A stretch of 32,011 nucleotides of DNA from Bacteroidetes bacterium RIFCSPLOWO2_12_FULL_35_15 (lineage in GTDB: Bacteria > Bacteroidota > Bacteroidia > 2-12-FULL-35-15), in the NCBI GenBank assembly GCA_001769385.1, contig MEPB01000013.1, positions 1-32,011 of the forward strand, read 5' to 3'. This document shows positions 2,893 through 28,090 of this stretch, one piece after another; the first letter of the stretch is position 1; every line of letters begins with the position of its first letter. The notes beneath the pieces are model-generated. The model was not told the origin of the DNA. It worked only from the letters and a program-made list of their open reading frames with translations, and did no database searches. Made by a program: the position numbers and the translations under genes.

Positions 2893-5427
2893 CTACTTAA
2901 TCAGATTTATTTTCCTTACCACTTTTGAATTATTTGTTTTGATTTCAACAAAATAAATTCCGTTTGTTTCTGTTGTAAGATCAATAGCATAAGTTCCACC
3001 CAGGGTGTTACTTATTTTTTTGCTTGAAATTTCCTGTCCTACAATATTTAATATTTTCAAATAAATGTCATCCGATTTTTCGAGCTCGACACTAATATTA
3101 AATGAACCATTGTTTGGATTTGGATAAATATTGATTGATGTACTAAAATCATTACTAAAAACAGATGTTGTACCACTTGTAAGATTAATATTATCAATAT
3201 ATAAAGTTTGTCCCCAACCGCTTAAATTTTGAAATGAAATGCGTGCGGCAGAATTTCCGGCAAAACTATTTAAGTTTATTGTTTCTGTTCTCCATTGTGT
3301 TGCGGTTGGAACAAAAAGACTACTTGCGTTATCCGGAGCTGTTGCCAGGCTTGTACCTCCCTTTGAATAGATATTAGTCCAGGAAGAACCACAATCAGTT
3401 GTTATCAATACTTTTAAAGAATCTGAATAAGTGGAACTGTATCGGGAATAAGCAACGTCAAATTTTAACGTGATAGGAGCAAGAGCGCTGGTTAAATTCA
3501 AATAAGGAGAATAAATATAATCACTTTGTCCGTCCAAACTTGTCGAGCTTGAATAATTATCCATTCTGGCAGATGAAGTACTTGTTCCAAATCCTCCTGC
3601 GGTGGTGACTTTTGTCCAGGTAACATTGGCATCCTGATTTACTATCGTCCAGTTCGTAGAAGGGAAAGTACTTTGAAAACTTTCTGTTTGTGGAGTTAAA
3701 ACAACCGGTGATGCTGAAATTATAGTAAAATTAGTTGTTTGAGCGTCATTTGCAGTATTCCCATCGGTATTAGAATTCGGATTTGAAGTATAGCAATTAA
3801 AGGTATGAGACGCAGGGCTTATTCCATTCATTACAGGTAATGTAAATGTTGCAGTTTGAGCAGTTGTTAAACTACCCGACCAGCTATATGTTTGAAGAGT
3901 TCCTGCATCAACTTTATAGTTAATTGTACAACTTGTTAATGAGGATGAACCAAAGTTCTTTAATGTAACAGAAGGAGTAAGGGATGTATTGCAGCTGGAA
4001 TAACCGGTTGCAGGATTGTTAACTGTTTGAATACCGGCATCATTTGTAAATCCGGGAGGTATTGCATTTGGATCAAAGCCATCTGTGGTGGTAGCTCCGG
4101 TATTTCCAGGATCCAGCCATACTTTTAACTGTGTTGCTGATGTTCCGCCACCCAACCAGGAAGTAGAAAATTTTCCATAATTATCATGGTTGTTAGCTGC
4201 TGAAGCTCCACATGAAGATGGTCCACCATAAAGTTGACCAATTATCCGGTGGTTTTGATCAAACAAAGGGGAACCCGATGAGCCCGGTTCAGTGCAAGCA
4301 GTGGTCCATTGGCCCACTTGCCATGTGTCAGCAGCCGGATTTCCCCAAGATGCAGTGGTAGTAGCATTTAATGCTTCAGATATTTTTTTTATATCTCCAT
4401 TGGGATGATGGATACCAACTACAGAAGAAGCAGGAGTGTTTATTTTTGACCAACCATTGAAATACGTAGCATAAGCAGCAGGAACTGTTCCTCCTGATAA
4501 ACCTCCTGTAATTTCAACTAAACAAAAATCAGATACTGCACTGCGAGCTCTTAAAGTTGATGCATTAAGCGATTGGGTTGTTGAAGGGGAACTTCCGGGA
4601 TTTGTACAACCGGGTGCTTCCCAGTTGAAACGAAATACCCATGTTGCCCAATCATTTGACCCCGAGCAATGGTTAGCAGTTAACACATAAGGTTTACCAT
4701 CTTGTGGTACATCGTTTACCAGGGAGCCGGTACAAAACTCGCTGCCACCTACTACCAAACAAACCACCCCTCGTTTTTCATCTTGCCAATTTGTTCCTGT
4801 TGGACAATTCACATTTACCTGACAGGCACCTGAACCCCCAAATGATTTTTGAGCATATTCAACAACTCCTCTATAACCATGTGTTACTCGAAATAAGTTC
4901 AATCGACCTGGATTTGCAACAGCAGCTGGTTCATAATATTCGATAACGATAGCTTCTCCCGGTAGGAGGTCTGTTGCAAACATTTTGGAGGCATCATTGT
5001 TTTGGGAAGTAAATGCACCGATCACAAAACTTTTATCAGCCGTATAAATAAATAACTTAGCGCCATCCGGCATATAATAATCATCAAAAGCGAGGTTCAT
5101 TGAAAGCGCATCTTTTGATCGAATGCCCAATTGCCACATTTTATCTCCATTTGCTAATGTGGTCCATGCACCTGAATTGCTCAGATTGTAATTTACAAAA
5201 TGATTGAATCCAAATCGGAACGGTCCTTTATTTTGATCATTGATGGCATCCTCTGCTTTCAATGCCGTAACATCAACTGTTGGCAGGTTTTCAAATTTTA
5301 TTACTGCAGTTGTTTGGAAATGTTTTTCAAAGCTTACCGGCTTTCCGCCCTGGCTAAGTTGTGCAAAAGCTGTGTTACAAAATAAGGAGCTTGAGAGCAG
5401 CAGAATTGATAGTACGTTTTTTTTCAT
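2893..5427 (-). CDS. secreted trypsin-like serine protease with T9SS sorting domain (copy 2)
   Basis: 844 residues, same architecture as copy 1: a 22-residue signal peptide of identical sequence, a pro-region, an S1 protease domain with H253, D300 and S384 (EPGSSGSPLFD), a CARDB-like domain, a jelly-roll-like domain, and a type A T9SS sorting domain (INIYPNPNNG to the end). The protease half is almost identical to copy 1. The C-terminal 80 residues are only about half identical, so constraint or gene conversion acts on the N-terminal half. The 122-base gap between the genes holds a terminator and a promoter-like motif, so the copies are probably separate transcription units. The family includes Lys-C-like enzymes, but the substrate is not shown here. 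Confidence 0.9.
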   Translation of the reverse strand: MKKNVLSILLLSSSLFCNTAFAQLSQGGKPVSFEKHFQTTAVIKFENLPTVDVTALKAEDAINDQNKGPFRFGFNHFVNYNLSNSGAWTTLANGDKMWQLGIRSKDALSMNLAFDDYYMPDGAKLFIYTADKSFVIGAFTSQNNDASKMFATDLLPGEAIVIEYYEPAAVANPGRLNLFRVTHGYRGVVEYAQKSFGGSGACQVNVNCPTGTNWQDEKRGVVCLVVGGSEFCTGSLVNDVPQDGKPYVLTANHCSGSNDWATWVFRFNWEAPGCTNPGSSPSTTQSLNASTLRARSAVSDFCLVEITGGLSGGTVPAAYATYFNGWSKINTPASSVVGIHHPNGDIKKISEALNATTTASWGNPAADTWQVGQWTTACTEPGSSGSPLFDQNHRIIGQLYGGPSSCGASAANNHDNYGKFSTSWLGGGTSATQLKVWLDPGNTGATTTDGFDPNAIPPGFTNDAGIQTVNNPATGYSSCNTSLTPSVTLKNFGSSSLTSCTINYKVDAGTLQTYSWSGSLTTAQTATFTLPVMNGISPASHTFNCYTSNPNSNTDGNTANDAQTTNFTIISASPVVLTPQTESFQSTFPSTNWTIVNQDANVTWTKVTTAGGFGTSTSSARMDNYSSSTSLDGQSDYIYSPYLNLTSALAPITLKFDVAYSRYSSTYSDSLKVLITTDCGSSWTNIYSKGGTSLATAPDNASSLFVPTATQWRTETINLNSFAGNSAARISFQNLSGWGQTLYIDNINLTSGTTSVFSNDFSTSINIYPNPNNGSFNISVELEKSDDIYLKILNIVGQEISSKKISNTLGGTYAIDLTTETNGIYFVEIKTNNSKVVRKINLIK

Positions 5428-5573
5428 TTTGAGAGAGATTTTTTTGTTGGTATTGAAAATTCATTTTTTTTCAGCAATAAGGATACGAAGTATTTTTCAG
5501 AAAAGCTAAAAAAACAAACACTGTCATTGGAAACTCTTCTTGAGTATATCAGAGATTCTGCTTGGAACAAGTT

Positions 5574-5662
5574 TGCGTTAGGGATAGCAGCGGAAATCCT
5601 TTTGTGAGGGACGAGCAAAAGATTGTAGTGAATAGCCCGACCCGCAGGGGAACGCCCTGAAA
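5574..5662. repeat. dispersed Bacteroidota-type intergenic repeat abutting uvrB
   Basis: Directly after the uvrB stop on the minus strand comes a GC-richer block reading CAGGG-CGTTC-CCCTG, then a CGGGTCGGGC segment, then a small hairpin (CAAAAG at 5616-5621 with CTTTTG at 5599-5604), ending in GCTATCCCTAACGC. From memory, this layout (GGGCGTT, CGGGTCGGGC, a variable hairpin flanked by AATCTTTTG and AAAGGATTTCCGC, TATCCCTAACGC) belongs to an intergenic element common in Bacteroidota genomes. A short reading frame through it (5424-5618, minus) is best explained as repeat-derived. Family membership is recollection, not a search result. Confidence 0.6.
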
Positions 5663-7687
5663 TTATTTACTCGCAAACAATTTCTCCAAGCCGAACATTT
5701 CATCCCTTAAACGAGCTGCTTCCACAAAATCAAATGCCTTGGCGGCAGCATCCATCGCTTTGCGGGTGCGGGTAATGGCTTTTTGTAATTCTTCTTTACT
5801 CATGTATTGAACAACCGGGTCGGCCGCATAATTAATCACATCACTCTCCACATATGCATGGCCAAGATTTCCTTTTGCATCCACAATAACAGTTGTTTGT
5901 CCCATGATGGATTCACGCGTTTTATTCAATGCTGTTGGAACCAAGCCATTATCTAAATTATAAGCGATCTGTTTTTGGCGCCTGCGTTCTGTCTCGTCAA
6001 TGGTGCGTTGCATGCTGCCTGTCATTTTATCGGCATACATTATTACTTTACCGTTGATGTTACGGGCTGCTCGTCCAGCTGTTTGTGTTAATGCGCGGTC
6101 AGAACGAAGGAAGCCTTCTTTGTCGGCATCTAATATGGCAACCAATGAAACTTCGGGTAAATCCAACCCTTCACGTAATAAATTGATCCCGATCAATACA
6201 TCAAATTTGCCAAGTCGCAGGTCACGCAAGATCTCCACACGTTCGAGCGTATCAACATCCGAATGAATATAGCGACAACGAATCCCAATGTTGAGCATGT
6301 ATTTTTGTAATTCTTCCGACATGCGTTTGGTAAGCGTGGTAACCAAAATCCGTTCGTCACGTTTGGTCACTTTATCAATTTCTTCGAGCAGATCATCAAT
6401 TTGATTCACACTCGGACGAACCTCTATAATCGGGTCCAGCAAACCTGTTGGGCGAATCACTTGTTCGGCAATAACACCTTCTGATTTTTGTAATTCATAT
6501 TCAGAAGGAGTTGCACTCACATAAATTACCTGATTGAGCATGGTTTCAAATTCCTCAAATTTCAAAGGACGGTTATCCATGGCAGCAGGCAAACGAAAAC
6601 CAAAATCAACAAGGTTCACCTTACGTGCACGGTCGCCACCATACATGGCTTTTATCTGTGGAAGGGTAACATGACTTTCATCGATCACCATTAAAAAATC
6701 ATCAGGGAAATAATCGAGCAGACAGAATGGGCGGGAACCCGGTGTGCGCCTGTCGAAATAACGTGAATAATTTTCGATGCCCGAACAATAACCCAGTTCA
6801 CGCATCATCTCCAGGTCGTAGGTAACACGGTCTTCGAGGCGTTTTGCTTCCAGGTGTTTTCCCATTTCTTTGAAATAATCCACTTGTTTCACCATATCAT
6901 CCTGGATCTGGTAAATAGCGCTTTTCATCGTTTCGGGACTGGTTACAAATATGTTTGCAGGATAAATAGTTACGCTATCCAGTTTCTCCATGCTTTTGCC
7001 GGTGCTGGTTTCAAAGTATTCGATCTCTTCGATCTCATCATCAAAAAATGCAACACGCAAGGAATAATCGGCATACGCTAAATTGATATCCACCGTATCA
7101 CCTTTTACACGGAAGTTGCCACGAAGAAAATCGGCTGTGGTGCGTGAATATAAACTCTCTACTAATTTATGTAAGAAACGATTTCTTCCAATGATCTCAC
7201 CTTTTTTAATCTGAATCACATTTTCGCGAAACTCCATTGGGTTACCGATACCATAAATACAGGAAACGGATGAAACAACAATTACATCGCGCCTGCCTGA
7301 AAGTAGGGCAGAGGTAGTGCTTAAGCGAAGTTTTTCAATTTCATCGTTGATGGAAAGATCTTTTTCGATATAGGTATTGGTGCTGGGAATAAAAGCTTCG
7401 GGCTGATAATAATCGTAATAACTCACAAAATATTCGACCGCATTTTTAGGGAAGAACTGTTTGAACTCCCCATATAATTGAGCAGCCAGTGTTTTATTAT
7501 GACTCAATACCAAAGTTGGTTTTTGAGTTTGTTCAATAACATTGGCAATGGTAAATGTTTTTCCGGAACCGGTAACGCCCAATAATGTTTGAGCCGGCAT
7601 GTGTGTGTTTATCCCTTCAACCAATTGTTTGATGGCTTGAGGCTGATCACCTGTCGGTGAAAAATCGGATGTTATTTTGAATTGCAT
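5663..7687 (-). CDS. uvrB: UvrABC excinuclease subunit B
   Basis: 674 residues, the normal length for UvrB, the damage-verifying helicase-like subunit of nucleotide excision repair, which is loaded by UvrA and recruits UvrC. Visible motifs: Walker A GVTGSGKT (37-44), the beta-hairpin region YYDYYQPEAF (about 90-100) that inserts between DNA strands, the DESH box (VIDESHVTLPQ), the GINLLREGLDLPEVSLV and QTAGRAARN helicase motifs, and a C-terminal UvrB/UvrC coiled-coil motif (about 630-670). The start gives the canonical MQFKITSDFSPTGDQPQAI beginning. No other uvr gene is adjacent. A perfect TAnnTTTG element ends only eight bases before the start codon, so the transcript may have almost no leader. 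Very high confidence in identity. Confidence 0.98.
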   Translation of the reverse strand: MQFKITSDFSPTGDQPQAIKQLVEGINTHMPAQTLLGVTGSGKTFTIANVIEQTQKPTLVLSHNKTLAAQLYGEFKQFFPKNAVEYFVSYYDYYQPEAFIPSTNTYIEKDLSINDEIEKLRLSTTSALLSGRRDVIVVSSVSCIYGIGNPMEFRENVIQIKKGEIIGRNRFLHKLVESLYSRTTADFLRGNFRVKGDTVDINLAYADYSLRVAFFDDEIEEIEYFETSTGKSMEKLDSVTIYPANIFVTSPETMKSAIYQIQDDMVKQVDYFKEMGKHLEAKRLEDRVTYDLEMMRELGYCSGIENYSRYFDRRTPGSRPFCLLDYFPDDFLMVIDESHVTLPQIKAMYGGDRARKVNLVDFGFRLPAAMDNRPLKFEEFETMLNQVIYVSATPSEYELQKSEGVIAEQVIRPTGLLDPIIEVRPSVNQIDDLLEEIDKVTKRDERILVTTLTKRMSEELQKYMLNIGIRCRYIHSDVDTLERVEILRDLRLGKFDVLIGINLLREGLDLPEVSLVAILDADKEGFLRSDRALTQTAGRAARNINGKVIMYADKMTGSMQRTIDETERRRQKQIAYNLDNGLVPTALNKTRESIMGQTTVIVDAKGNLGHAYVESDVINYAADPVVQYMSKEELQKAITRTRKAMDAAAKAFDFVEAARLRDEMFGLEKLFASK

Positions 7688-24109: not shown

Positions 24110-24130
24110 TTTAAAATCAATTTTTATTGA

Positions 24131-24166
24131 AACACCTTTGCATGAAAAAACAAAGGTGTTTTTTTA
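24131..24166 (+). terminator. intrinsic terminator of guaB
   Basis: A perfect ten-base stem (AACACCTTTG 24131-24140 with CAAAGGTGTT 24151-24160, ten-base loop) is followed by five more T. It starts 21 bases after the guaB stop. Confidence 0.9.
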
Positions 24167-24213
24167 GCATATATTGACCGACCGCCCATATCAATGGAAA
24201 AATAAAAAGTAAA

Positions 24214-24678
24214 TTATTTTGACATTTCTTGTCCTTCAACCTGAGCAAGTTCAGGTATAGCTCCCAGCTGTGTCATAATCCCTAAAAAATCAATCTCGGT
24301 CCATCTTTCAGCTATTTTATTCTCAACAATACGATTTATAGCAATTCCGGTAAATTTGATATTTTTATTGGTTGGGGCAATTCCATGAAATTCTCCTTTA
24401 TGTGTCCCATGAACTGTAAAACGATCCACTACCAAATCGCCTTCAGCAATCTGTTCCTCAACAGTAATTTTAAGATCTGGAAAACCGATGTTAAAAGTCT
24501 TCATGATGTTTTCTTTACTTTCTTCTTTATTTAAAACCTTCTTGCCTGTAAAGTGAAGTTTATAATTAGTTGCCCACAATTCATTTCCAATCTTATCGCG
24601 TTCCCCTTTTTCAAAATATTCCCAAAACTTGCGACTAATTGCTTTATTTTCTTGTTTTGTTTTTTCTGTTGTTTCCAT
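24214..24678 (-). CDS. SnoaL-like (ester cyclase-type) protein
   Basis: 154 residues, NTF2-like fold of the SnoaL family. N-terminal helices (ENKAISRKFWEYFEKGERDKI) precede the cone-shaped sheet with the family segments FPDLKITVEEQIAEGDLVVDRFTVHGTHKGEFHGIAPTNK and INRIVENKIAERWTEIDFLGIMTQLG. Relatives include polyketide cyclases, but most stand-alone members in Bacteroidota have unknown substrates. There is no signal peptide. A perfect -7 element lies 57 bases upstream. No polyketide genes are close enough to suggest a pathway. Confidence 0.9.
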   Translation of the reverse strand: METTEKTKQENKAISRKFWEYFEKGERDKIGNELWATNYKLHFTGKKVLNKEESKENIMKTFNIGFPDLKITVEEQIAEGDLVVDRFTVHGTHKGEFHGIAPTNKNIKFTGIAINRIVENKIAERWTEIDFLGIMTQLGAIPELAQVEGQEMSK

Positions 24679-24734
24679 GGTTTTGCTTTTTTTATAATTG
24701 TTAAAATTTAATAATAAACACCTATATGAAAAAA

Positions 24735-24742
24735 CAAAGGTA
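24735..24742 (-). promoter_or_regulatory. -7 promoter element of the SnoaL-like gene
   Basis: On the minus strand this reads TACCTTTG, a perfect TAnnTTTG match 57 bases before the ATG at 24678. Confidence 0.5.
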
Positions 24743-24886
24743 TATCAGCATAGGATTTTTGTTCCATGACAAAGATCAAAAGAGCGTGTGAAAATCGTCA
24801 AGAAGTATTTGTTTTTTAAAAAATACAGATAACTCATCGCAACATTCTTTTTTTATGGAATAACATTCTTTTTTTTAAGTTTCAAT

Positions 24887-24894
24887 TAAGTTTG
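24887..24894 (+). promoter_or_regulatory. -7 promoter element of the 24933 gene
   Basis: TAAGTTTG, a perfect TAnnTTTG match 38 bases before the ATG at 24933. It may drive both this gene and the 25267 gene. Confidence 0.5.
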
Positions 24895-24932
24895 TACATT
24901 TAAGATAGTTTATCGGGTAAGACAAATAGAAA

Positions 24933-25220
24933 ATGAAATATACCTTGACCCTTTTGTTGTCATTTGCAGCATTGACAACTTTTTCTCAGATAATTGACTA
25001 CTCTCTTTTGCCTGGAACCTGGATTTGTTATAAAACTTCAGAAGCAACCCGAGATCTGACCGAATCCTACAAAAACCATTATGCGACTTTTAAAACCGAT
25101 TCTTCATATATTGAAGAAAGACGATATTACACAGGTATTATTTCAAGTTTTTTTGTTGCAAGAGAAAAAATCAAAAGATTGCTTTTTTGTGAAATTAAAC
25201 CTGCAAAGGAAAAAAATTAG
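24933..25220 (+). CDS. small secreted protein, possible frameshift near its end
   Basis: 95 residues as read. A signal peptide (about 1-18, TFS-Q) is followed by LLPGTWICYKTSE, which looks like the opening strand of a lipocalin-like domain (LxGTW). After the seven-T run near 25150 the frame becomes basic and unconvincing (REKIKRLLFCEIKPAKEKN). Removing one T from that run would open a continuation (KSKDCFFVKLNLQRKKIS...) ending at a TAA at 25243-25245, only 21 bases before the next gene. So this may be a frameshifted copy, a sequencing error in a homopolymer, or a genuine short protein. Function unknown. Confidence 0.55.
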   Translation: MKYTLTLLLSFAALTTFSQIIDYSLLPGTWICYKTSEATRDLTESYKNHYATFKTDSSYIEERRYYTGIISSFFVAREKIKRLLFCEIKPAKEKN

Positions 25221-25266
25221 TATCATTGAAAAAAATCCGAAATAAATTTTTACCAAAGAATAGATT

Positions 25267-26769
25267 ATGAAAAAAACAGTTACACTCTTTTGTCTTGCAT
25301 TTTACCTGCAAACGTATGCTCAGGGACCTGCCTTCACAATTGGATCTGATAGATCTATGTCTTACCAAGACAATCCGGAAGTCACCACGTTCAGAATCGA
25401 AAATAATAATTACGTTTTGTATAGTAAATTCAAAATGGCAGAAGGTATGCTGTTGCACCTGGAGGGATTTTCTGATCCAACAGATAGCTACTTGTGTTCG
25501 CAGGACATACGTGTTCCGCATTTACCTAATGAAATAGCGATCTACGAAGGATTTGTTGCCTTGAATGATAAGATGGTTCTTTTCAGATCTGTTTACAATA
25601 AGGAGGAGAAAAAGTGTGTGCTTTATGCACATGAATTGAATCCAAAAGGAATGATTATAGATGATGCAGGAAAAGCAATTACTTCCATAACAGCTGAAAA
25701 AGCTATGAATTCAGGAAATTTCATTATTAAAGCATCAGCTGATGGAAAAAGCTTTGTTGTCCTTTCTGAATTTCCATTTGTGAAAGAGACTAAGGAAAAA
25801 TTTGCAATAAGTGTCTTCGATAATTCATTAAAACAACTCTGGAGCAAAGAATTTGAATTACAGAATGATTCACGCAGAGGCCCAACGAATGAACCTATCC
25901 TGACAAATTCCGGAATAGTTTACCTAATAAAAAAAGTGGAAGGCCCTAAGAATGCTGATTTTTATACAACTTATCAGATTGCAGAAAAAGGTGCAAAAAT
26001 AAAAGAGAATATTTTAGAAATGGAAGCGCCAAAGAAAATCGTTAATTATGGTTATGTAGTGGATGAAGCAACGAACGACCTTACCATTGCTGGTTACTAC
26101 ACAGAGGATGGAAAAGTATCAGTTGGCGGAACAGGTTTTAAAGGTTATTTCTTCTACAGAATATCAGGAAGCACAAATGATTTTGCAGCCCGTAGCACAA
26201 ATCCTTTCGAAAAAACACAAAGTAACCTTCGTGTAAATAGGGTATTACGTGTAAAAGGGAATTTATTTCTTCTTGGAGAAGAAAAATATGAAAACAATGT
26301 TGCCACTGAACAAAAGGATGAAAAAGGATTTCCGGTATATAAAAGAGAATTTTATGCAGGTAAAATTCACGTTTCAGTATTTGATGCAACAGGAAAAAGT
26401 ATCATAAATACAATTATTACAAAGGAAAATAAATCTGTTGAGGATGGAGGATTTTCAAATTCTTTTTCTGCTGCAATAATAGGTGAGCAGATAATGATTG
26501 TTTACAATGATTATCAATATAAGCATGATGGACTGGAGCACAAGATAGTTGGGCCCATGTTGGCAAATGTAAAAATACCGATAATTCAGTTCATTGGAGC
26601 TGATGGTTCAACGGGCAAAAAATTTGCATTGATTGATAGCAATGTAGAAGGTAAAAAAGGATTGTCTTATTTATATCCTCAAATTTTTATTCCTGTTTCA
26701 AACAAAGAACTCTTTTTTCTTGGAAAGGATTCGGGTTCCTTTTATCCACTCCGATTGAAGTTGCCTTAA
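25267..26769 (+). CDS. secreted protein of unknown function, probable beta-propeller
   Basis: 500 residues. A signal peptide (about 1-18, TYA-Q) is followed by a long all-beta protein with repeated 'strand, charged turn, strand' units (GKSFVVLSEFPFV, FAISVFDNSLKQLWSKEF, NDLTIAGYYTEDGK, GNLFLLGEEKYE, GEQIMIVYNDYQYKHDGL). These look like propeller blades in which values are compared or displayed. There is no T9SS tail and no lipobox, so it is probably periplasmic. It lies 46 bases after the small secreted protein and may be co-transcribed with it. I recognise no named family. Confidence 0.85.
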   Translation: MKKTVTLFCLAFYLQTYAQGPAFTIGSDRSMSYQDNPEVTTFRIENNNYVLYSKFKMAEGMLLHLEGFSDPTDSYLCSQDIRVPHLPNEIAIYEGFVALNDKMVLFRSVYNKEEKKCVLYAHELNPKGMIIDDAGKAITSITAEKAMNSGNFIIKASADGKSFVVLSEFPFVKETKEKFAISVFDNSLKQLWSKEFELQNDSRRGPTNEPILTNSGIVYLIKKVEGPKNADFYTTYQIAEKGAKIKENILEMEAPKKIVNYGYVVDEATNDLTIAGYYTEDGKVSVGGTGFKGYFFYRISGSTNDFAARSTNPFEKTQSNLRVNRVLRVKGNLFLLGEEKYENNVATEQKDEKGFPVYKREFYAGKIHVSVFDATGKSIINTIITKENKSVEDGGFSNSFSAAIIGEQIMIVYNDYQYKHDGLEHKIVGPMLANVKIPIIQFIGADGSTGKKFALIDSNVEGKKGLSYLYPQIFIPVSNKELFFLGKDSGSFYPLRLKLP

Positions 26770-26795
26770 TTGGTGTAGAATGAAAATAAAAATGC

Positions 26796-26816
26796 CTCAA
26801 GTAATTTTGAGTTTTA
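26796..26816 (+). terminator. weak possible terminator of the 25267 gene
   Basis: A five-base stem CTCAA-GTAATT-TTGAG is followed by TTTT, 27 bases past the stop codon. The stem is short and AT-rich, so function is uncertain. Confidence 0.35.
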
Positions 26817-26879
26817 AAAAACAAAATAATACGTTTTAAGTGTTTAATTATTTATAAATCAAATCAATGTTAAGCCAAT

Positions 26880-26899
26880 GCAGGTGTTATTTCACCTGC
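26880..26899. repeat. hairpin repeat, copy 1
   Basis: Perfect stem-loop GCAGGTG-TTATTT-CACCTGC, preceded by AAGCCAAT and followed by GTT. Copy 2 starts 51 bases later with the same flanks (GCCAAT before, GTT after). No T-run follows on either strand, so it is not an intrinsic terminator. Confidence 0.8.
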
Positions 26900-26930
26900 G
26901 TTAATGAATTACATTTGAAGCTGAGCCAAT

Positions 26931-26950
26931 GCAGGTGTTATTTCACCTGC
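26931..26950. repeat. hairpin repeat, copy 2
   Basis: Same perfect stem-loop as copy 1, GCAGGTG-TTATTT-CACCTGC, preceded by GAGCCAAT. It lies 95 bases before the DUF1801 start codon. The nine bases GTTATTTCA (26937-26945) can pair with TGGAATAAC at 26989-26997 downstream, allowing one G-U pair. Confidence 0.8.
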
Positions 26951-26984
26951 GTTCCTCTGAGTAATAATTAGAGAATTTGTTTTG

Positions 26985-27000
26985 TTGGTGGAATAACCAA
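26985..27000. promoter_or_regulatory. downstream partner hairpin before the DUF1801 gene
   Basis: TTGGT-GGAATA-ACCAA, a five-base stem whose loop region TGGAATAAC is complementary to the loop region of the hairpin repeat at 26931-26950. An equivalent element (27462-27484) sits before the next gene. Role unknown; candidate RNA regulatory structure or half of an inverted repeat. Confidence 0.45.
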
Positions 27001-27045
27001 GATATGAAGTTCGTGGATTTGCAAATGTTTTAATAAAAAAAAGAA

Positions 27046-27393
27046 ATGGAAATCCAACAACAAAATATTTTATTAGGACTTCCCGATGACAAACTAAAAC
27101 TTGTTTTAGGTCTTCGCGAAATAGTCATTTCATCAGCGCCTGAGCTTAAAGTTATATTAAAATGGGGCAGACTGACTTTCGTTAATGAAAACAACCTTAT
27201 TGCATTTATTTGTTCATGTCCGGGTCACGAATATATTGAACTTGGTTTTTTCAAAGGGGATTCTCTTTGCGACACTAAACAATTATTAGAAGGTAACGGT
27301 AATAAAATAAGACGATTAAAAATAAAATCTTTGAATAAAATTCCGTCAAAACAAATAGAAAAATGGCTGAAGGAAGCTATTAAATTATCTTAA
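27046..27393 (+). CDS. DUF1801-type (YdhG/frataxin-like fold) protein
   Basis: 115 residues. The sequence fits the small alpha/beta DUF1801 family: an N-terminal helix (LPDDKLKLVLGLREIVISSAPELKVILKWGRLTF) with the characteristic I/LKWG near residue 40, a central strand pair (NLIAFICSCPGHEYIELGFFKGDSL), and a C-terminal KIRRLKIKSLNKIPSKQIEKWLKEAI segment. Function is unknown in general; some members are annotated as stress-linked. There is no signal peptide. The gene is bracketed by copies of the hairpin repeat (before the start and 26 bases after the stop). Confidence 0.88.
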   Translation: MEIQQQNILLGLPDDKLKLVLGLREIVISSAPELKVILKWGRLTFVNENNLIAFICSCPGHEYIELGFFKGDSLCDTKQLLEGNGNKIRRLKIKSLNKIPSKQIEKWLKEAIKLS

Positions 27394-27419
27394 AATATCA
27401 TTTAAAAACTTGAGCAAAT

Positions 27420-27437
27420 CAGGTGTTATTTCACCTG
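27420..27437. repeat. hairpin repeat, copy 3
   Basis: CAGGTG-TTATTT-CACCTG, the same loop as copies 1 and 2 with a six-base stem, preceded by GAGCAAAT. It lies between the DUF1801 stop and the LOG-family gene. The nine bases GTTATTTCA (27425-27433) are perfectly complementary to TGAAATAAC at 27469-27477. Confidence 0.8.
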
Positions 27438-27461
27438 CATTTCACTAAAAAAAAAATTACC

Positions 27462-27484
27462 TTGTTGCTGAAATAACGCAACAA
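27462..27484. promoter_or_regulatory. downstream partner hairpin before the LOG-family gene
   Basis: A perfect seven-base stem TTGTTGC/GCAACAA encloses TGAAATAAC, the exact reverse complement of the hairpin-repeat loop region. It ends 24 bases before the ATG at 27509. It is the counterpart of the element at 26985-27000. Confidence 0.5.
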
Positions 27485-27508
27485 AAAAACTAAAATAATA
27501 TATAAAAT

Positions 27509-28090
27509 ATGAAAAGCATCACCGTATTTTGCGGTTCCAGTAACGGGAACGAAGATAATTACAGAAAACATGCATTTTTGCTGGGCCAGACACTGGCTAA
27601 ACATCAAATTCAATTAGTTTATGGAGGAGCTAAAGTTGGACTTATGGGAGCTGTTGCTGATGGAGCATTAAGCGAAAAAGGAAAAGTAATTGGAGTACTT
27701 CCCACCTTTTTAAGAAGCAAAGAAATTGCTCACGAAAACCTTACTGAACTAATTCTTGTTGATAGCATGCACGAACGAAAAACAAAGATGAATGAACTTT
27801 GTGACGGTGTAATTGCACTTCCGGGAGGATTTGGTACCATGGAGGAGTTTTTTGAAATGCTCACATGGGCCCAACTGGGATTGCATAAAAAACCTATCGC
27901 ATTATTTAACATTGATGGATTTTATGATCCCTTAACTGACATGATCCAAACAATGGTAGATAAAGGCTTTCTGAAAGAGGTAAATCAACAGATGATCTTA
28001 ATAAGCGATAATAGTGATGAGCTGCTAAGTAAGATGCGAAACTATAAAGCACCACATGTTGGAAAATGGATAACTGAAGAATCTGTTTAA
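27509..28090 (+). CDS. LOG-family Rossmann-fold protein (nucleotide 5'-monophosphate phosphoribohydrolase-like)
   Basis: 193 residues, the usual length for LOG/TIGR00730 proteins, formerly called lysine decarboxylases. Signature PGGFGTMEE (105-113) and the upstream MHERKTKM segment (conserved Arg/Lys for phosphate binding), with an N-terminal Rossmann start ITVFCGSSNGNE and LVYGGAKVGLMGAVADGAL. Plant and some bacterial members release cytokinin bases or hydrolyse AMP-type nucleotides. The physiological substrate here is unknown. It starts downstream of the third hairpin repeat. The glutamine amidotransferase follows after 53 bases and may be co-transcribed. Confidence 0.95.
   Translation: MKSITVFCGSSNGNEDNYRKHAFLLGQTLAKHQIQLVYGGAKVGLMGAVADGALSEKGKVIGVLPTFLRSKEIAHENLTELILVDSMHERKTKMNELCDGVIALPGGFGTMEEFFEMLTWAQLGLHKKPIALFNIDGFYDPLTDMIQTMVDKGFLKEVNQQMILISDNSDELLSKMRNYKAPHVGKWITEESV

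Follow-up and report, generated by a model that had tools for sequence, protein, structure and literature searches.

GCC-tagged palindromes around a DUF1801 gene in a Bacteroidetes genome: probable REPs and REPINs linked to the RAYT transposase family

The window analyzed here, a stretch of 32,011 nucleotides from Bacteroidetes bacterium RIFCSPLOWO2_12_FULL_35_15 (contig MEPB01000013.1), contains a group of hairpin-forming palindromes between three ORFs, 25267-26769, 27046-27393 (DUF1801) and 27509-28090 (TIGR00730/LOG-family), and all of these hairpins lie outside the predicted genes (Table 1). The first-pass annotation of the region described three copies of CAGGTG-TTATTT-CACCTG, the second and third of which are followed, before the next start codon, by another hairpin with a complementary loop. 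Three copies are indeed present, and the position of the third (27420) is right, but the first two begin one base later than annotated, at 26881 and 26932 instead of 26880 and 26931; the complements TGGAATAAC (26989-26997) and TGAAATAAC (27469-27477) stand exactly where they had been placed. An Rfam RNA family was sought in the hairpin region and rejected, as none reached its gathering score and the one match at E<=1, BTnc201, scored 19.5 bits against a cut-off of 105.

Table 1. Palindromic repeats located around the DUF1801 gene in the window.
Feature	Coordinates	Strand	Description	Basis
REP copy 1	26874..26902	+	GCC tag 26874-26876, hairpin AATGCAGGTG-TTATTT-CACCTGCGTT	model R1 match 26870-26906, 48.9 bits
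REP copy 2, half of REPIN A	26925..26953	+	GCC tag and hairpin	model R1 match 26921-26957, 45.4 bits
Decayed inverted REP, partner half of REPIN A	26981..27000	-	around TTTGTTGGTGGAATAACCAA, expected TTTGTTGGTGAAATAACACCAACAAA	alignment with other copies
REP copy 3, half of REPIN B	27414..27441	+	one stem base lost, tag GCA instead of GCC	model R1 match 27410-27445, 28.8 bits
Inverted REP, partner half of REPIN B	27462..27484	-	TTGTTGC-TGAAATAAC-GCAACAA, paired stem change relative to the family	comparison and folding
REPIN A	26925..27000	.	between ORF 25267-26769 and the DUF1801 gene	comparison with other copies
REPIN B	27414..27484	.	between the DUF1801 gene (27046-27393) and the TIGR00730/LOG-family gene (27509-28090)	comparison with other copies

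Copy 1 (26881) is without an inverted partner of its own, and its sole neighbor is copy 2, in the same orientation and 51 bp further. The two partner halves have decayed beyond recognition by the family model R1 described below, neither of them reaching E<=1; they were identified from their likeness to C60, C78, C58 and other copies. The ancestral form of these partner hairpins is seen in the better-kept copies C60, C78, C58 and C104 and reads about CTTTGTTGGTGAAATAACACCAACAAAG; judged by such copies, the REPIN A partner seems once to have had the longer stem TTTGTTGGTG...CACCAACAAA, its present stem TTGGT/ACCAA being what decay has left of it. Folded as single-stranded DNA, the two-hairpin stretches of the window gave z-scores of -3.77 (0 of 200 shuffles as good) and -2.66 (1 of 200). 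Four REPIN stretches were folded in total; the two from elsewhere in the genome comprise L166, which folds better than its shuffles (z -4.67), and L162, which does not (z -1.38, 22 of 200).

When 51 hairpins of the window's genome and of related genomes were aligned, the unit consensus was GCC-N-TTG(CA or TT)GGTG-TTATTT-CACC(TG or AA)CAA-N, with the loop TTAT(TT) and a nearly invariant GCC tag (positions 5-7) that is often CGCC. These hairpins, 51 of 78 in a collection picked for pairing, were used to build model R1; some of them lie beside genes of the RAYT transposase family, so the genome counts reported below are not fully independent of that choice. Left out of the model as possibly unrelated were L114 and the hairpins of genome G056 (L039 and L047; another family), which have the 14-mer in common but a CCGG outer stem and positions near contig ends. 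The core GGTGTTATTTCACC occurs in nine exact copies in the 5.39-Mb genome of the window and in none when read backwards as a control; it is also present in 10 of the 58 other genomes searched, nine of them from the same genus, and the backwards control gave two matches over all 59. The excess is smaller for a 16-base version of the core with up to two mismatches (23 matches vs. 9 in the control), and the loosest matches are therefore partly due to chance. The composite pattern GTTATTTC-N22..52-GRAATAAC was found at five places in the genome (9 strand-wise matches, 2 in the control). Model R1 has 23 matches at E<=0.05 in the genome of the window, and 22 of them lie outside ORFs of at least 90 aa as called by a simple script, compared with 78% of random positions in the same loci falling inside ORFs. 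The repeat is a short, intergenic palindrome in many copies, as REPs are, with 23 copies in this genome and 95 in the relative G015. An inverted partner within 100 bp is detected by the model at E<=1 in 5 of 22 loci (L162, L163, L166, L167 and L174) and by eye in about 10; single, unpaired palindromes are common by the same visual inspection.

Where a partner hairpin exists, it is the same palindrome inverted, and an inverted pair at near-fixed distance is a REPIN, in which two REPs are inverted relative to each other with their tags outward, mostly about 54-68 bp from start to start. The loop complement emphasized in the first-pass annotation is a consequence of this arrangement, because the inverted palindrome is complementary by construction. 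Among 15 neighbor pairs within 150 bp in the relative G034, tags-outward inversion accounts for 11, with starts 54-68 bp apart; one pair has the opposite arrangement and three are direct. The spacers within G034 are alike. Direct arrays are commoner in G015, where 20 neighbor pairs include 14 direct ones, six inverted with tags outward (39-67 bp) and none of the opposite kind. The genome of the window has one inverted pair with tags outward among the model matches at E<=0.05, and more if decayed halves are counted; inverted doublets at a preferred spacing are thus found in G034, G015 and this genome. In G034 the loops read TTTTTT opposite AAAA, so that the exact complement is not kept there. 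By eye, half-sites GCCNTTGTTGGTGTT lacking the second arm were noted about 10-45 bp outside full hairpins (L030, L036, L064, L072, L090, L212 and others); part of the 39 half-sites listed were full hairpins with T-only loops, to which the term does not extend. Cleavage may in fact take place at the half-site, which would then be the real end of the element, and a duplicated unit in genome G004 stops at one.

The first-pass annotation further proposed that the stems change while their pairing is retained, and this is borne out by a covariation score of 0.379 vs. 0.125 for shuffled alignments (0 of 500 reach it) and at most 0.080 for slid controls. Two further covariation measures are less extreme, with 9 and 42 of the 500 shuffles doing as well. 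Both letters have changed together at 5 of 10 stem pairs, and the outermost pair occurs as A-T, T-A, C-G, G-C and wobble. Pairing is kept in 98.8% of the cells of the 51-hairpin alignment, a figure inflated by the choice of hairpins for pairing. Covariation of this kind would be no less expected if the repeat were recognized as single-stranded DNA by a Y1 transposase.

A candidate transposase was found between family hairpins in the relative G019 (L065:1781-2314). This 177-aa gene product, P0001, matches NF047646 REP_Tyr_transpos with 81.6 bits (cut-off 80) and has no Pfam match at E<=0.001, and a profile of ten such RAYT proteins has TnpA_REP 4ER8 as its sole PDB match at E<=0.01 (E 1.1e-6). 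We searched 59 genomes with the RAYT protein and termed RAYT-positive those with a match of at least 48% identity and at least 150 bits. This definition leaves out fragments of 51-57% identity scoring under 150 bits (e.g., G000:C5 and G013:C115), as well as matches of about 20-37% identity, the latter because three of them inspected in the genus (L100, L101 and L106) carry other palindromes. Among the 36 same-genus genomes, the window's own included, 11 are RAYT-positive, and each of these has at least one locus of the RAYT clade with family hairpins beside the gene. Hairpins were counted with strict filters and at most 115 candidates scored per genome. All 11 RAYT-positive genomes have between 8 and 92 hairpins (92 in G015, or 95 in the separate search), compared with at least 8 in only 3 of the 25 RAYT-negative ones, namely the window's own (23), G005 (19) and G012 (12), and none at all in 16 (Fisher p 6e-7 for at least 8 hairpins vs. 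RAYT presence; Mann-Whitney p 1.5e-6). Outside the genus, 21 of 23 genomes have no hairpins, the other two being G049 with 4 and G056 with 5.

The protein search of the 59 genomes found no intact RAYT of this clade in the genome of the window, nor in the G005 and G012 assemblies. It did reveal a 3' remnant in the window's genome (C5:9731-9856) with 57% identity to residues 136-177, that is, over 42 residues; an exact-core hairpin starts 27 bp further and is followed, by eye, by a half-site, which is the layout seen downstream of the intact genes of relatives. Bracketing of a cognate RAYT gene by inverted REPs is accordingly observed in relatives, with the 42-residue remnant as its counterpart in this genome, and the link of the window's repeats to a RAYT is proposed from that remnant together with the related genomes. 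At least two more distant RAYTs remain in the genome (C61 and C44), and a scan for GTG..CAC hairpins found no family hairpins in their loci; the same scan of 10 Y1-transposase loci of this genome found any only in L085, about 1.4 kb away. Another palindrome, CGTCCTCGTT-tgc-AACGAGGACG (L106 1416-1438 and 2060-2082), stands on either side of the C61 RAYT, and its loops on the two sides are again complementary.

The association extends to named genomes, mostly of Bacteroidota with some Ignavibacteria or Chlorobi by their record names, which were scanned with a fixed hairpin rule written after the palindromes of RAYT loci had been viewed. In the best 80 of 298 related genes, hairpins were found on at least one side in 68 loci and on both sides in 47, compared with 5 of 429 control pieces. 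Exclusion of 10 loci that repeat genomes already used leaves 58 of 70 and 42 of 70, respectively (control, 4 of 384), and the remaining 12 of these 70 loci have no family-type hairpin by the rule. The tag is likewise in place, with GCC beside 44 of 64 upstream hairpins and GGC beside 39 of 57 downstream hairpins. The loops on the two sides of the RAYT genes are exactly complementary in 33 of 42 loci.

Elements of the REP/REPIN kind are already known; new here is the GCC-tagged hairpin family of a Bacteroidota RAYT. Insertion sequences of the IS200/IS605 family share a related Y1 transposase and subterminal hairpins with it, and some RAYT copies that sit between REPs at unrelated loci resemble an IS; however, the protein here is of the RAYT type (P0001 scores above the NF047646 cut-off) and the terminal hairpins are inverted, whereas those of IS608 are in direct orientation. 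TnpA_REP subclass 2.6, which equals RAYT group 5, is described in the consulted sections of PMC6006769 (2018) as mostly from Bacteroidetes, with a median of 179 aa, the motifs NH[LIV]H and YIH[QN]NP, an SS tail and a guide-recognition region that is not conserved, and its genes as lying between atypical structures that lack GT[AG]G and recur at other places in the genome. As far as those sections go, the RAYTs and repeats found here agree in phylum, protein length (177 vs. about 179 aa), NH[LIV]H, YIH.NP, the SS tail and palindromes without GT[AG]G. In our alignment A3 of 10 proteins, N56, H57, H59, Y133, I134, H135, N137, P138, S155 and S156 are invariant; the variable residue of YIH[QN]NP is N, Q, K or L, and not every member fits that motif exactly. 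The differences concern the palindromes, which are called atypical and weaker in structure in those sections of PMC6006769, whereas here they are hairpins of defined form, with a GCC tag and some 10 stem pairs, and the W-Q motif (Table 1 of that paper), which is W-E in the clade, three more distant proteins of the alignment having W-T or W-M (in A3, W112 is invariant and followed by E, M or T). By these motifs and the description available, the hairpin family and its RAYT appear to fit Bacteroidetes TnpA_REP subclass 2.6 except for W-Q.

The canonical GT[AG]G is absent 5' of the hairpin, and GCC stands there instead. To the extent that the parts of PMC3116915 (2011) consulted describe REPINs, and with them BIMEs, the likeness comprises the inverted REP pair, the short spacer, tandem arrays, decayed singles and clustering at the RAYT gene; the difference is that the two halves can here have two different stems, TTGTTGGTG and TTGCAGGTG. 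Dimorphic REPs are known in their own right, such as Y and Z2 around one RAYT gene in E. coli (PMC2817692, 2010, from a partial text). The GTAG- and CGTC-tagged REP superfamilies and TIRtrons, as presented in a portion of PMC3733652 (2013), also have tagged palindromes, dimers and compensatory stem changes. They differ from the present family, whose tag is GCC (often CGCC) and whose hairpins lie on both sides of RAYT genes, whereas CGTC repeats are reported in that portion as not associated with transposase genes. No description of a GCC-tagged REP sequence was met in the literature searched, which was queried without the tag as a term, was available in part and had supplements and most subscription papers outside its scope.

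We consider it very probable that the hairpins of the window are REPs, partly arranged as REPINs, that are linked to the RAYT (TnpA_REP) family of single-strand DNA transposases. By analogy with work on RAYTs and IS200/IS605, the RAYT, an HuH-Y1 nuclease, would bind the hairpin in single-stranded DNA, cleave near it under the guidance of the 5' tag, and insert the REPIN, or REP-RAYT-REP as a whole, at further intergenic sites by copying or moving it. The first-pass annotation had listed a small mobile repeat among its options, and this one is upheld by a repeat that is dispersed, almost wholly outside genes, arranged in inverted pairs, and both tracks and brackets RAYTs, with mobility presumed from the literature. 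The copies in the window are most likely old, non-autonomous leftovers, because the search of the genome recovered no more of the cognate RAYT than a 3' remnant, and any effects on the expression of the DUF1801 or LOG genes are possible as side effects. As a result, a candidate RNA switch is removed and a searchable definition (tag, stem, loop and spacing) is gained for the little-described REPs of Bacteroidetes RAYTs.

The candidate switch was a cis-regulatory leader RNA, in which two hairpins with kissing loops would control the downstream genes, and it drew its appeal from the two complementary-loop hairpins on the coding strand ahead of two start codons in the window and from the covarying stems. 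We regard it as very unlikely. A leader should keep a constant orientation and a position upstream of genes, but among 19 matches located between two same-strand genes, the window's three copies counted singly, 8 point with the genes and 11 against them, which looks random; many copies are single by eye, RAYT genes are bracketed with a mirror-image hairpin after the gene, the exact loop complement is lost in the TTTTTT and AAAA loops of G034, and Rfam has no family at gathering score in the region. The loop complement itself reflects the inverted palindrome. The first-pass annotation had stated that hairpins occurring alone and in random direction would reduce the pairing to chance and the unit to a simple dispersed repeat; single hairpins are indeed found in addition to paired ones, and the direction relative to genes does look random, but the pairing is not chance, given the REPIN spacing (11 of 15 pairs in G034).

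Near-perfect palindromes upstream of genes could also be operators or binding sites of nucleoid proteins, kept by selection for regulator binding, and REPs of other systems are described as targets of IHF, gyrase and Pol I (PMC6006769, in the sections consulted). This is extremely unlikely here, as the change of both letters at half of the stem pairs fits recognition of a folded strand better than of duplex DNA, and hairpin abundance tracks a transposase. Inverted repeats around a short spacer and a small gene between copies are likewise what would be expected of a MITE of a classical DDE transposase or of integron attC-like sites around a DUF1801 cassette, a reading whose likelihood we rate as negligible: single palindromes are common by eye, and the repeat ends coincide with the ends of some RAYT units. 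The polarity of attC is, moreover, the reverse of the GTT...AAC found here, and attC sites, along with an invertible promoter, were dropped on that ground.

With RAYT-linked REPs and REPINs as the preferred reading, the related genomes also offer natural cases for an open question, namely by what route RAYTs disperse REPs and whether RAYTs are mobile themselves; according to the part of PMC8266576 consulted, evidence for mobility of tnpA_REP is lacking. In G004, the left parts of two RAYT loci share 96.4% identity over 475 bp, starting at the GATGCC of the REP, and in two right-hand parts 260 bp are 98.8% identical up to a point just past the outer half-site; the flanks are unrelated. RAYT copies of Pontibacter sp. 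E15-1, whose record is not labeled as a MAG, are 84% identical over 618 bp from REP to REP and then stop, as are those of MAG UWPOB_CHIT5 (88% over 647 bp), in both cases between unrelated flanks; the homology starts at the left REP in G014 (89%, 639 bp) and G029 (96.5%, 202 bp). Eight pairs of RAYT copies were inspected for borders in one comparison. Both borders are at REPs in L226/L228 and L286/L291; L222/L224, the two left parts of G004, have a REP border on the left and run into contig ends on the right; L219/L225 and L251/L267 end at the right-hand REP and start near the start codon; and L241/L256, L289/L295 and L246/L276 have no clear REP borders. Homology that ends at REPs or outer half-sites suggests, as far as sequence comparison can tell, that the whole unit itself moves. 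In old copies (65-89% identity), the same pattern could also result from loss of neutral flanks, and G004 therefore carries most weight; it is a metagenome bin, and a mixed origin of its copies is possible. In our judgment there is an even chance that GCC-tagged REPs constitute a third widespread superfamily, in Bacteroidota and relatives such as Ignavibacteria, with RAYTs that would be autonomous rather than domesticated genes in single copy, REP-RAYT-REP as a unit that transposes in the manner of an IS, and REPINs as its MITE-like internal deletions. In G027:C55 (L064 1762-2036), a REP and the start of a second RAYT abut another RAYT fragment truncated near codon 54.

A comparison with empty sites at the window's locus found no DUF1801 match in any of the 12 loci searched and no clean empty site. 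The closest relative at this place, G024, has the LOG gene without a DUF1801 gene before it, and by eye (L193) the end of IMPDH lies about 0.2 kb before its LOG gene. The window has about 3.2 kb more than G024 at 24110-27508, including ORF 25267-26769 and the DUF1801 gene and ending at REPIN B. Elsewhere in the window, an Rfam Flavo-1 RNA (RF01705) was found at 5572-5646 on the plus strand (50.2 bits vs. a cut-off of 42), between ORF 5663-7687, which looks like uvrB, and a duplicated secreted-protein gene. The neighboring long ORFs 248-2770 and 2893-5427 on the minus strand encode closely similar proteins of 840 and 844 aa, which resemble trypsin-like secreted peptidases carrying a sorting domain at the C terminus, and perhaps arose by tandem duplication.
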